Shown here one piece after another: positions 7,358-57,280 of a stretch of DNA of 64,000 bases. Location of the stretch: NCBI GenBank assembly GCA_020049855.1, contig JAGVLJ010000038.1, forward strand, positions 1-64,000, given 5' to 3'. The notes under the pieces are model-generated. The model saw only the letters and a list, made by a program, of their open reading frames with translations. It made no database searches and was not told the DNA's origin. The stretch is from Bacteroidia bacterium. GTDB taxonomy: Bacteria > Bacteroidota > Bacteroidia > UKL13-3. How positions within the stretch are numbered: position 1 is the stretch's first letter; the number at the start of each line of letters is the position of its first letter. A program made the position numbers and the translations under genes.

Positions 7358-7984
7358 TTAGTTGTTTTTAAAAGCCCCGTAAAATTCTGCTGATGAGAGG
7401 GCAATTGAAGTTCCGTTGATGTCATACACTGAACATGAAAATCCTATACGTACATCAAGCACAGTAACACCGGAAACATATTTTTTTTTCACTTCAGTAA
7501 TTGTAAAAGTGCTCCCATTTTGGTCTCCGTTAAGGGTGCTCCATTTTTTTCCGTTTTCATCCGTCCATTCAATGGTAATTCCCTGCGTATTGAAAGGGCC
7601 GGTGTAAAAGTAATCACCTAGTTGAAAGAATGTTTCAAATTCTTTGTCAGTTGGAGAAGGAGGGCCATGTTTAAGAATTCCTTTCGAGATAACTAACGAG
7701 TTTTGGTTATTCCCCGGCCTGCCCAGCGTACTGCTGAAGGCAACTGTTGGTGAATCGGGTGGGCTAGCAGGTGTTTTTACATTTAATGTCGAATTGATAT
7801 AACTGTTTAATCCATCATAAAGGGTGAAATCTACGCTTCCAACTGTGCCAATAAAATGATAAAGGTAAGTCGAGTCAACGGGGTCTGGCTTTTTAGGTAT
7901 AATGGGCTCGTCAATGGGGTATTTTTTACAGGAGGCGGCAAAAAGTCCCAAAAGGCCGACAAACAAAACAAACCGCTTAAGCAT
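7358..7984 (-). CDS. Hypothetical lipoprotein
   Basis: Signal peptide with lipobox MLKRFVLFVGLLGLFAASCKK. Confidence 0.8.
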   Translation of the reverse strand: MLKRFVLFVGLLGLFAASCKKYPIDEPIIPKKPDPVDSTYLYHFIGTVGSVDFTLYDGLNSYINSTLNVKTPASPPDSPTVAFSSTLGRPGNNQNSLVISKGILKHGPPSPTDKEFETFFQLGDYFYTGPFNTQGITIEWTDENGKKWSTLNGDQNGSTFTITEVKKKYVSGVTVLDVRIGFSCSVYDINGTSIALSSAEFYGAFKNN

Positions 7985-15376: not shown

Positions 15377-16453
15377 TTATTTTTTGTATACCTTAATTTG
15401 ATTAATATAGTTAGTGGTGAATGTTCCTTCGGAATAAATATTACCGATCGGGTCGGAGCAAATTGCGTGAATATTGATTTTAGAATTAATAGCACCTAAG
15501 GCTTCCCACTTATTTCCATTCCACTTCACTACATCAAATCCATTTCCATTGCTGTTAAAAATCAGGCTGCCGGCTGCATAAATATTTCCCTGTGGATCGG
15601 TACAAAGAGATTGTACGTTACCATTTAATCCGCCCATACGTATCCATTGTGTGCCGTTCCATTTTCCAACATAAAATTTTCTGGCTACCTTATCATAGAG
15701 ATCACCGCCCACATATAAATTGCCAAGCAAATCGGTACATGAAGTAAACATTTGATTGTTTACATCGTTGGTTATACGTGGGAGTTCACTCCAGGTACCG
15801 TTGCTGTAACTGGCTACTATAGGGTAGTTAAGGGAACCGCGGTTCAATACTTCATATATTTTTCCTCTTCCGTCAGCACTAATTGTACCTACGAATTCAT
15901 CGGGAATCAGGCTGCCTAAGTTGTTCCATGAATTGCCCCCGGCATGGGCATATACAAAGGTTTGTCCGGTGTTGTTGGGTACAGCCGCGTATAAATTACC
16001 ATTTTTATCCGTTGTGCTATAAATATGAGCAGCAAAGGGGCTGTGAATGCCCATGTCACTCCAAGTAGTGCCGTCCCATTTGGCAATGTAATAATAGGTA
16101 TCTGCTGCATCGCCTACCGATCCTGAAGCGTATATATTTCCGCTTTGGTCACTGCTCAAATGGTAAATGCTGTAGTTGGTACGTAAGCCTTCCAGGGTGA
16201 TCCATTTTTTACCATCCCATTTGATCACATAGTATTTCCCATTGTTGTCGGTAAAACCTGCTGCGTAAATGTTCCCCTGCGGGTCGGAACTCAGCGTAGT
16301 TACAATATTGTTGAGACTGACATTACCCACGGTTTCCCATGTTTTTGGGGTAGGCGGTATGGGATCATCCCCATTCTTCGGGTCACTTTTTTTACATCCG
16401 TTCAGTGCCAGCAGAAACAGGGCAGCGAAGCAGGCTAGTGTATAAAATCGCAT
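15377..16453 (-). CDS. Repeat-containing lipoprotein, predicted beta-propeller
   Basis: Lipobox LALNGCKK; recurrent SDPQGNIYAAG...KWDG..W units. Confidence 0.75.
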   Translation of the reverse strand: MRFYTLACFAALFLLALNGCKKSDPKNGDDPIPPTPKTWETVGNVSLNNIVTTLSSDPQGNIYAAGFTDNNGKYYVIKWDGKKWITLEGLRTNYSIYHLSSDQSGNIYASGSVGDAADTYYYIAKWDGTTWSDMGIHSPFAAHIYSTTDKNGNLYAAVPNNTGQTFVYAHAGGNSWNNLGSLIPDEFVGTISADGRGKIYEVLNRGSLNYPIVASYSNGTWSELPRITNDVNNQMFTSCTDLLGNLYVGGDLYDKVARKFYVGKWNGTQWIRMGGLNGNVQSLCTDPQGNIYAAGSLIFNSNGNGFDVVKWNGNKWEALGAINSKINIHAICSDPIGNIYSEGTFTTNYINQIKVYKK

Positions 16454-16591: not shown

Positions 16592-16639
16592 AGTTGGGGG
16601 GGGGATGTCACGCGCAAAAATACGCGCGCCAGTTCTGGG

Positions 16640-47737: not shown

Positions 47738-48241
47738 TTATCTGGTAAGGGCGTGAATCATATCCATATGTTGCGGGAATTGGTTTAATAAATCGTTCCT
47801 GTCGGCAAGTTCAAAATCGGCAAAGTCAAAACCCGGGGCTACGGTGCAGCCTACCAAAGCATAGTTGCCACCGTTTTTAACCCGTGAACCAAACCAGCTT
47901 CCGGCCTCTATTAGGCACTGAAAATTTTCTCCCTATTCCATGTCAGTACCTAAATGATGAATATATAATTCACCTGAGGGTTTAATTTCAATAATTTCCA
48001 GCGAATCGCCAGCGTAAAAGTGCCATAATTCATCAGCAGCAATGCGATGCAGCGCGCTAAACTGTGCCTGCTGTAACAAAAAGTAAATGGCGGTTGAATA
48101 CGCTCTGTCCCCATGAAAAGTGGCAGGTAAATGCGCCCGGGCAATGGTGTGCTTTGCACGGTAAGTTTCTCTGAAAGCCCCTCCTTCAATATGCTCTGTA
48201 AGGTTTAGTTTTTTTATCCAGTATGCGGCTGTTTGTTTCAT
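47738..48241 (-). pseudogene. DUF985 / cupin_5 family protein interrupted by an in-frame TAG
   Basis: N-part ...YIHHLGTDME, TAG at 47933-47935, then same frame GENFQCLIEAGSWFGSRVKNGGNYALVGCTVAPGFDFADFELADRNDLLNQFPQHMDMIHALTR to TAA at 47738-47740. Confidence 0.85.
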
Positions 48242-48419
48242 GCGGCAAATTAGGATAAAGCGGTAAATCTATTGGCATCCTTAAACTAACAGCGGTCAGT
48301 TTTCTTTCAGCAGTGCTCGGTTGCTGAAGTTGCAAACTTTAGTTATTTTGTGTTACAAGTTGCACCCCGAATGGGTCGGGACTAAAAGAACTTGCAACAG
48401 CAGGGGGGGGCATAGGTAG

Positions 48420-48878
48420 CTACCTTCGCTTTCTAACCTTTCGCATTGATTCTAATTTCATTATTTCGCTTTCATCTTTTTGGCGTGTTCGTTTACAGAT
48501 ATCAGTATATAAGTATTGGGGTACTATATTCCCTTGAGTATAATATCTTTTTCTATAGTTTGCATAAATGACATAGATTTCTCCAATTTCAAATGTAAAG
48601 CCGCAGTCGCCATTACCTCTTCCACTAATTACTTGAAGAGTATCCTTAATTAGCTTACCCTTATATATATTTTCAACTATAATAGAATACTTAATCCTAT
48701 TAATGTGAATGCCAGTTGGACTATCAATTACAAAGGAAGGCTCTTCTGTAAAAACTTTTCCTGTTATAACAACATCCGATTTTGCTAGTTCTACTTTTAC
48801 CGAAGCTTGAGGAATGCAACTGCACGCATTGACTTGGTTTTGAATAAATAATAACAAAACACAAAACAATATTTTTTT
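48420..48878 (-). CDS. Hypothetical secreted Cys-rich protein (TIMP/netrin-like start)
   Basis: MKKILFCVLLLFIQNQVNACSCIPQASVKVELAKSDVVITGKV. Confidence 0.7.
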   Translation of the reverse strand, partial: KKILFCVLLLFIQNQVNACSCIPQASVKVELAKSDVVITGKVFTEEPSFVIDSPTGIHINRIKYSIIVENIYKGKLIKDTLQVISGRGNGDCGFTFEIGEIYVIYANYRKRYYTQGNIVPQYLYTDICKRTRQKDESEIMKLESMRKVRKRR

Positions 48879-48991
48879 CATAAATCCCCCCAACTTATAC
48901 TCATTTGCAAGGAGTACTTTTTTTGCTTTGTGTTTATTCACTTCGTTCATGAGTAAGTTGTAACGCTCTCTTTCATTTGAATGTTACTTTT

Positions 48992-49817
48992 CTACGGCTT
49001 TACCAATACATGGCCTTTGAAGGATGCTTTTCCTGAATTGTAAGTATATTTTAAATCGCAAAATTCAATTTTTAAGGAGCCATCGCCATTTTTGGTCACG
49101 TACACTTTAGTTCCCGGATCGATGCTCCATGATTGAAGCATATTGGATACAAAATAAACTCCTACACTTCTTTCTGTCCAGCCGGTAACATCGTTTACCA
49201 CCTGGTATTCTCCGGTTGTCGGGGGAATGCGATTGAATTTAAAATAATAATTCCATCCGGTGAAATAATCATTTAGCGTTGCCTCCCAATAATCAAAACC
49301 TTCATGAGTGCTCATGTCAAAATCATCGAAGGTATGCGTTCCGGTATGATTAATAATGGTGTTTTGAGTGTATGAACATGGAGCTACCACGCGGCTGGTT
49401 CTTACTTTAAGCACTTGTTTGCTGTAAACGTATCCATATTCATTACTGGCAAAAGCCCTGATATAATAAACCGTATCGGGTTGCAGGTCATAAAGCGTTT
49501 TTGTAAAAATGCCTTTTTGCCCATTCATCAAAACCTGGTCGCTCTTGGCATCGGGTAGGGGATTTTCAAGGGAATAAAAGAAGCCCATATACTCTACCTT
49601 GGCCTTGCCTTCCGATTTTACATTGGCTGTGACGATTACATCAAATACATCAACGTTAGCACTTATAAGTTCAATTTCAGGTAATACCCCTTTACTTGGG
49701 TCACCAAACAAATCAAAACTCCCATTTTTGCAACCACCCAACGAAAGGGTATATGCCCCAATTAAGTAAAGAAGGGAAAACTTCCAAAGTCTATTTTTTT
49801 TTGAATTGTGAAATCAT
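48992..49817 (-). CDS. Fibronectin III-like lipoprotein; start codon out of frame in the sequence as given
   Basis: Body ORF 48992..49741. Upstream in-frame sequence NRLWKFSLLYLIGAYTLSLGGC is a lipoprotein signal; the only good ATG (49815-49817) is out of frame by one base of an A9 run. Confidence 0.75.
49794..49802 (-). repeat. A9 homopolymer (T9 on +) at 5' end of lipoprotein gene
   Basis: ATGATTTCACAATTC-A9-TAG; with A8 the ATG reads MISQFKKNRLWKFSLLYLIGAYTLSLGGC. Confidence 0.9.
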
Positions 49818-49821
49818 GCTA

Positions 49822-50457
49822 TTAATAAAAATAACAAGTTACACCTACCATACTTTTCCAATATGAATAACCGGCAAGTTCCCAATCCATAACCAAATTT
49901 TTCCCAACCGATCCGCTAATTAACCAGGTATCATTCAGTTCATAGCTTACACCAATTTTAGGTGTAATACCAATGGCATTGGAACTCATTTCATAATTAC
50001 CGACTTCAAAAATGTTATGTATCTCGTATTTGTAGGAGTTTGCCTGATACACCAAATCCAAACCGACAATTGGAGAAAAAGGCTTATCCAAAATTTTATA
50101 TTCCGATTGCAGTCCGATGGTGATTACCTTAAAACTTTTCCAGATTTCAGTTCTGGGGGAAAAAGTGGTGGAGTTATCCTTGCTAAGTATTCCGGCATTG
50201 TATAGCGTATCAAATCTTGGTGTGAGGGAAAAATAGCCAATAAACCCTTTTGTTTTAAACCTGCTGTCAATGTCAGCCATGCTGTATGTTAGCTCTATTC
50301 CGGGGGCTTGTTTAAATACAAAACCAAACCGGAGGCTGGGTTTAATTATACCGGTTGAAACACCAATTTGTGCCTGACCTTGCAATGACAGGAACACTAC
50401 TATTGTAAGAAGACTGAGCTTTAGTTTTTTTTTGCATAAAGTAAATTCGTTCCACAA
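49822..50457 (-). CDS. Outer membrane beta-barrel-like protein; ATG out of frame in the sequence as given
   Basis: Body in frame from a TTG; ATG at 50435-50437 is separated from the frame by one A in an A9 run. Confidence 0.75.
   Translation of the reverse strand: MWNEFTLCKKKLKLSLLTIVVFLSLQGQAQIGVSTGIIKPSLRFGFVFKQAPGIELTYSMADIDSRFKTKGFIGYFSLTPRFDTLYNAGILSKDNSTTFSPRTEIWKSFKVITIGLQSEYKILDKPFSPIVGLDLVYQANSYKYEIHNIFEVGNYEMSSNAIGITPKIGVSYELNDTWLISGSVGKNLVMDWELAGYSYWKSMVGVTCYFY
50425..50433 (-). repeat. A9 homopolymer (T9 on +) at 5' end of OMP gene
   Basis: ATGC-A9-CTAAAG; with A8 the ATG reads MQKKLKLSLLTIVVFLSLQGQAQIG. Confidence 0.9.
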
Positions 50458-50518: not shown

Positions 50519-50881
50519 CTAATGCTGATGGTCGGGGCCAAATACATCGGCTTTGTGCCCAAATTCATGCGATGCTTCCCGAAGAACATTGGCAGCCTCG
50601 GCATTTCCGGTTGCGCGTTCAAAATTGTCGGCCATGGTCATTAAAAACTGAAAGGTGAAATGGTTCATTTCTTCCACGCTCATTTCTTTTGTCCATAGGT
50701 CAATGCGCATAGCTTCTTTTTGCAGTCCGTCCCACAATCCAATCATAATGGCTTTGGCTGCCTGTGGCTCTCCAAACTCTCCGTCATCAGCGGTCCAGTC
50801 AATAGATACAGGTAGGTTTTCTTTGTCCAGGTGTACATCAAATTTGATGGTGGACGTGCGTTGAATGTCGTCAGTAGTCAT
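50519..50881 (-). CDS. gldC: Gliding motility protein GldC
   Basis: STIKFDVHLDKENLPVSIDWTADDG; neighbourhood with alaS, M23 peptidase and MerR. Confidence 0.92.
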   Translation of the reverse strand: MTTDDIQRTSTIKFDVHLDKENLPVSIDWTADDGEFGEPQAAKAIMIGLWDGLQKEAMRIDLWTKEMSVEEMNHFTFQFLMTMADNFERATGNAEAANVLREASHEFGHKADVFGPDHQH

Positions 50882-56143: not shown

Positions 56144-57280
56144 GTGAACAAAGTTGACCACTCTCAACAGCAGAAATTACTGGAACTACAGGAGCAGCAC
56201 CTGTTACGGAAATTGCTTGTGTTGCCCTCAACCTTTGTTGATTTCAGTTCTAATGATTTTTTAGGATTGGCACATGGCCATTTTCTGGATGCGGCTGTGC
56301 AAGAAACATTACAAAAAATGGCATGGCCCCACAGTGGTGCTGGAGGCTCAAGACTCATCAGTGGAAATACACATTATACCGAACAATTGGAAAGCGAACT
56401 CGCGACCTTTTATCAAGCAGAAGCCGCCCTCATTTTTAATTCGGGTTACGATGCCAATCTGGGTTTGTTATCTTGTATTGCCTCCCGGCATGATACCATT
56501 TTATATGATCAGTATTGTCATGCAAGTATACATGACGGCATCAGGTTAAGTATGGCAGGGGTAAAACACAGTTTCCTTCACAATGATTTGGCTGACCTCG
56601 AAAAAAAAATGGAGCATGCCAAGGGGAAAATTTTTATTGTGGCCGAAACAGTTTACTCGATGGATGGAGATAATGCACTGCTGGAAAAGCTTATCGAAAT
56701 GGCAGAAAAATATCAGGCAGCTTTAATTATGGATGAAGCTCATGCCACCGGAGTTTTTGGCCCAAAGGGAGAAGGGTTTGTTATAAGTAAAGGATTGCAA
56801 AACCGGGTATATGCACATATCCATACCTTCGGCAAAGCATTGGGCTGTCATGGGGCTGTGGTGGTTGGTTCATCAATATTACGGGAATACCTCATTAATT
56901 TCTCACGTTCTTTTATTTATACTACTGCCCTGCCTCTGCATAGTTTGGCAGCAATTAGGTGTGCACACTACTACATGCAATCTGATACTGAAGCAAGAGA
57001 AAAACTATGGGAACTTATTCGATATTTTGAAGAACAATGCAAAACACTACACGTAAAATACCATGTACAATGCGGAAAAAGTGCCATTCAATCTATTTTG
57101 GTAGGAGGTAATGAAAGAACTCGCTCGGTGAGTACCCATCTACAGGCGGAAGGTTTAGATGTACGAGCTATTTTATCTCCAACTGTTCCGGTGGGTACAG
57201 AGCGGTTACGTATTTGTTTGCACAGTTACAATACAAAAGAGCAAATTGATCATTTACTCACTGCATTGAATCATGTATAA
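56144..57280 (+). CDS. bioF: 8-amino-7-oxononanoate synthase
   Basis: FSSNDFLGLAHG, GAGGSRLISGNT, DEAHATGVFGPKGEGF, THTFGKALGCHGAV-like PLP site; GTG start. Confidence 0.95.
   Translation: MNKVDHSQQQKLLELQEQHLLRKLLVLPSTFVDFSSNDFLGLAHGHFLDAAVQETLQKMAWPHSGAGGSRLISGNTHYTEQLESELATFYQAEAALIFNSGYDANLGLLSCIASRHDTILYDQYCHASIHDGIRLSMAGVKHSFLHNDLADLEKKMEHAKGKIFIVAETVYSMDGDNALLEKLIEMAEKYQAALIMDEAHATGVFGPKGEGFVISKGLQNRVYAHIHTFGKALGCHGAVVVGSSILREYLINFSRSFIYTTALPLHSLAAIRCAHYYMQSDTEAREKLWELIRYFEEQCKTLHVKYHVQCGKSAIQSILVGGNERTRSVSTHLQAEGLDVRAILSPTVPVGTERLRICLHSYNTKEQIDHLLTALNHV

Follow-up and report, generated by a model that had tools for sequence, protein, structure and literature searches.

The question raised by a pair of envelope genes

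Two neighbouring envelope genes on the minus strand of the genome of an uncultured Bacteroidia bacterium each carry a run of nine As close behind the start codon, and this raises the question of whether the two tracts form a reversible switch, are corrected during expression, are errors of the assembly, or mark a locus that has recently been lost. The window, that is the whole stretch of DNA that was analysed, is 64,000 nucleotides long (GC content of 39%) and makes up nearly all of contig C44 (64,052 bases) of a 2.91 Mb draft genome in 84 contigs. On the minus strand, the gene order is peptidase, MerR-like, gldC-like, OMP-like, FN3-like lipoprotein, TIMP-domain and cupin-like gene, where the names peptidase, MerR-like and cupin-like are those that we presume from inspection.

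The tracts are read on the plus strand as T9 at 50425-50433 and 49794-49802, and both shift the frame by +1. The first is located in the OMP-like gene (49822-50437; about 204 amino acids in the A8-equivalent frame), which has a weak Pfam match to the OMP beta-barrel, below the cut-off. The ATG of this gene at 50437 is followed by C, A9 and CTAAAG, the tract starting four bases after the A of the ATG, and the gene is broken within its first four codons, leaving a 31-residue dead-end peptide as written. The second tract disrupts the n-region of the signal peptide of the FN3-like lipoprotein (48992-49817; lipobox LGGC), a gene whose start lies four bases past the stop codon of the OMP. Here the ATG at 49817 is followed by ATT TCA CAA TTC, A9 and TAG, and the product as written is MISQFKKK (eight residues). 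The long frames of both genes start immediately 3' of their tracts, and in both genes A8 is in frame and A9 is out of frame. The long frame of the lipoprotein gene begins LWKFSLLYLIGAYTLSLGGC..., is preceded by a TGA at a distance of about eight codons, and contains no ATG, GTG or TTG ahead of the lipobox.

The frames described in the earlier note were confirmed: both A9 tracts exist, each displaces a conserved ATG from the frame by a single base, and translation of the lipoprotein from its ATG stops at once, with no other start before the lipobox. For the OMP-like gene, the ATG is indeed out of frame, with the qualification that a TTG upstream at 50457 reaches the long frame with A9; this TTG may be the real start, but it is not conserved in the sister species. 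No second copy of either gene was found elsewhere in the genome.

The start region in related genomes

In the sister species (G002, the MAG 'Bacteroidia bacterium isolate SSF48'), the gene order is kept, and the OMP and the lipoprotein are 71% and 80-81% identical to those of the source genome. The two genes start with ATGCCTAAAAAACTA and ATGATTTCAATACCTGTAAATAGATTA, respectively, each with an ATG at the same position and in frame, and there is no A-run of nine at either start. The matching ATGs, which read in frame in the absence of any such tract, mark the A8-equivalent frame as the ancestral one, as the earlier choice of start codons and of A8 as the ON state had supposed, and in both genes A9 exceeds this frame by one base.

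Distant homologues were found in three family-level relatives (G041, G048 and G049) and one class-level relative (G037), where the OMP gene is directly followed by a lipoprotein-like gene, with a four-base overlap between the two genes in two of the four genomes, and the pair is intact, each gene opening with an ordinary signal peptide from an ATG. In G001, the remaining species of the genus (84% complete), there is no such pair between gldC and cupin. Since the pair is kept as a unit in relatives and is missing in G001, it looks co-functional yet dispensable, judging from gene content. No second assembly of the source species was found among the genome contigs and viral contigs searched.

Both long frames are otherwise undamaged and under purifying selection relative to the sister species, with pairwise dN/dS values of 0.16 for the OMP and 0.10 for the lipoprotein, compared with 0.03-0.20 for the neighbouring genes. 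As the long frames are clean and the values fall within the range of the neighbours, any loss of these genes must be recent, and values of 0.16 and 0.10 would be compatible with very recent loss only.

It had been suggested that the pair undergoes slipped-strand phase variation, with A8 (ON) and A9 (OFF) alternating so that the two surface genes switch reversibly. Much of the locus has the form of the phase-variable surface genes of Neisseria, Campylobacter and Haemophilus: the products are envelope proteins, the homopolymer lies early in the frame near the start, a change of one unit moves the start codon in or out of frame, the genes are one base from ON, and the frames are otherwise intact. 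Unlike in those genes, however, the tract is missing in every homologue, as a comparison with relatives found no A9 at either start in any of the five homologous pairs (G002, G037, G041, G048 and G049); similar runs are common and in frame throughout the genome, including A9/T9 in signal-peptide codons, which show no bias towards OFF; and the tracts are known here at one length, from one assembly. Switching of the pair would also require that two distinct tracts, in genes lying close together, be ON at the same time, and the neighbouring cupin gene is broken by a nonsense codon. Phase variation is therefore unsupported by the homologues, the in-frame signal-peptide runs and the cupin lesion, and we consider it improbable. 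A new paired contingency switch confined to one species, in which A8/A9 slippage is independent in the two tracts and the pair is produced only with the two genes ON together, would be more improbable still. Tracts of the Neisseria, Campylobacter and Haemophilus type usually consist of G or C, and the present ones consist of A. Were the switch real, the pair would represent a poly-A contingency locus in an environmental-type member of the Bacteroidia, a group better known for surface-gene switching by DNA inversion.

A/T runs across the genome

Searching both strands of the 2.9 Mb genome gave 155 matches to A9, with four runs in the window, and ten A10 runs with none longer. The survey of reading frames comprised 117 distinct runs, which is not every run in the genome, in stretches fetched around the tracts. 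The count leaves aside runs in noncoding DNA, those directly ahead of a start and those in antisense frames, and the in-frame count rests on open frames and their reading rather than on curated annotation.

About 80 other coding A/T runs of at least nine bases were in frame, whether poly-A or poly-T, and among the A10 runs in coding sequence 6 of 7 were in frame. Many of the in-frame runs lie in signal peptides, for example MKKKYIVALFALALSVSAVAQ, MKKKFTLLFTVIGWG, MPKKKSIVVYITGSFLFLMLTGC and MNRIVIFFFAVIGLSSC. In the window, the runs at 7481-7489 and 56601-56609 are in frame. The A9/T9 runs are scattered over housekeeping and envelope genes, and the two tracts are not distinct from this genomic background. 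Only three of the runs examined were out of frame, namely the OMP A9, the lipoprotein A9 and an A10 in serS. Two nine-base runs within 631 bases are not unusual alone, but it is unusual that both are out of frame. A search of 392 kb for frame switches at runs (A/T of at least 7, G/C of at least 6) found nothing convincing beyond gene overlaps and antisense frames.

Two A9 runs in one gene were also seen in a minus-strand lipoprotein-like gene of locus L058 (G000:C80), where the runs at 1835-1843 and 1758-1766 both fall within about the first 30 codons and are in frame.

The out-of-frame A10 in serS, the single-copy gene for seryl-tRNA synthetase, lies on the minus strand at G000:C27:44096-44105 (positions 1497-1506 of locus L129) so that the opening codons and the remainder of the gene are read in different frames; in each of the two congeners the orthologue is in frame. 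This A10 is either an assembly error or a sign that the gene relies on +1 slippage.

These counts bear on the reading that one or both envelope genes really have A8, that the genes are intact, and that the tract is a consensus or assembly error. Systematic over-calling of A9 is excluded by the approximately 80 in-frame coding runs, and the earlier argument to this effect, which was made from a single in-frame run of the window, holds on the wider count; individual errors may nevertheless occur at a low rate, and serS is a warning in this respect. The clean long frames under purifying selection, the comparable frameshift in an essential single-copy gene, which is most easily explained as an error, and the draft state of the genome (84 contigs) all speak for individual errors at the two starts. 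Against them, the in-frame runs, coding A10 runs included, indicate a low error rate, errors in both partners, only 631 bases from each other, would have to be coincidental, and the lesion in the cupin gene next to them is a substitution and no homopolymer indel. Error is the second most probable reading, though an unlikely one on balance.

Transcriptional or ribosomal slippage would be another way to keep the genes functional, with A9 being real and enough corrected product being made, as in insect endosymbionts. In many bacteria, runs of nine As are prone to slippage (PMC1088944), and Blochmannia has frameshifted genes whose frames are clean apart from the shift (PMC3017870). The likeness to the poly(A) frameshifts of Blochmannia and Buchnera (PMC3017870) extends to single-base indels in A9-A10 of otherwise intact genes and to an essential translation gene being affected (serS here; dnaG, dnaX and pth in Blochmannia). 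In contrast to those genomes, the present one measures 2.9 Mb, with 39% GC in the window and three cases found, its frameshifts are not common to several species, and the slippery runs at the frame transition are absent from all homologues found. The direction of slippage differs between the three genes: the serS A10 would need a +1 insertion (A10 to A11), which is the favoured direction, whereas the OMP and the lipoprotein could be rescued only by losing one base (A9 to A8) or gaining two. Transcription indels at homopolymers are mostly insertions, overwhelmingly so in both E. coli and Buchnera; in Buchnera, 151 of 157 insertions fell in homopolymers, compared with only 16 of 57 deletions (PMC5574713). 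The programmed transcriptional slippage offered earlier as an alternative to phase variation consequently finds no support, as it would run in the disfavoured direction at runs that homologues do not conserve, and slippage rescue of any kind appears slightly less probable than phase variation.

Lesions in the neighbouring genes

Upstream of the pair, the gldC-like gene (50519-50881, minus strand; Pfam GldC-like, 5.2e-32) is intact and anchors synteny in the source genome and both congeners. Downstream, the gene for a TIMP/NTR-domain exported protein (48420-48950, minus strand; Pfam TIMP, 3.3e-07) lies between the lipoprotein and cupin genes in the source genome only and is absent from the sister contig; nothing convincing in the way of repeat structure was found around this inserted gene. 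A G8 run (48403-48410) is present just past its stop.

The next conserved gene on the strand, the presumed cupin-like gene (47738-48241, minus strand), contains an in-frame nonsense codon TAG at 47933-47935 and is intact in G001 and G002. This lesion is a substitution, which a homopolymer error cannot produce. The OMP, lipoprotein and cupin genes thus all have a lesion here and an intact orthologue in the sister species, and the cupin gene has one in G001 as well. About 38 genes are shared with the whole sister contig, and clear disabling lesions were found only in these three, which are adjacent among the shared genes (p ~0.004 if lesions are independent). The clustering of lesions, the substitution in the cupin gene and the TIMP-domain gene unique to this genome together favour local decay.

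We infer that the A9s are real and recent and have not been selected as a switch, and the explanation that we prefer, with a probability of just under one half, is recent local decay of a dispensable OMP/lipoprotein locus after chance expansion of the A-tracts. The clean long frames under purifying selection count against it, as does the serS A10, which is either an error or tolerated. The course of such a decay can be outlined as follows. The n-regions of signal peptides are lysine-rich, and with AAA as a frequent lysine codon in this genome, eight As in a row are to be expected in them; in an AT-rich genome, A-tracts would accordingly arise in these codons by chance. Ordinary replication slippage would then have extended A8 to A9, with one A gained in each tract, and one-base changes of this kind are the commonest indel at such runs. 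Since the genes are four bases apart and the A9 OMP frame ends early, the lipoprotein would probably be left without coupled translation even if its own frame were unshifted. Loss of one partner may have relaxed selection on the other, so that A9 came to inactivate the two members of a small unit that is co-functional and dispensable, and the next conserved gene, cupin, would have been struck as well, by a nonsense codon.

The locus resembles recent pseudogenes in which the first lesion occurs at a homopolymer, with the lesion at the longest run, the rest of the frame intact, a neighbour carrying a nonsense codon and the locus missing in a congener; no difference from such pseudogenes was found in the features tested from the assembly. 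The sequence pattern noticed at the outset is real and its frames were read correctly, and it is the mechanism that was over-interpreted. The case is instructive in that A-rich signal-peptide codons would be the first point of failure once a surface locus has lost its use, and the resulting pattern is easily mistaken for phase variation.

Among the other homopolymers of the window, the longest G run is a G9 at 16596-16604, which is intergenic and lies upstream of a minus-strand gene starting at 16453.
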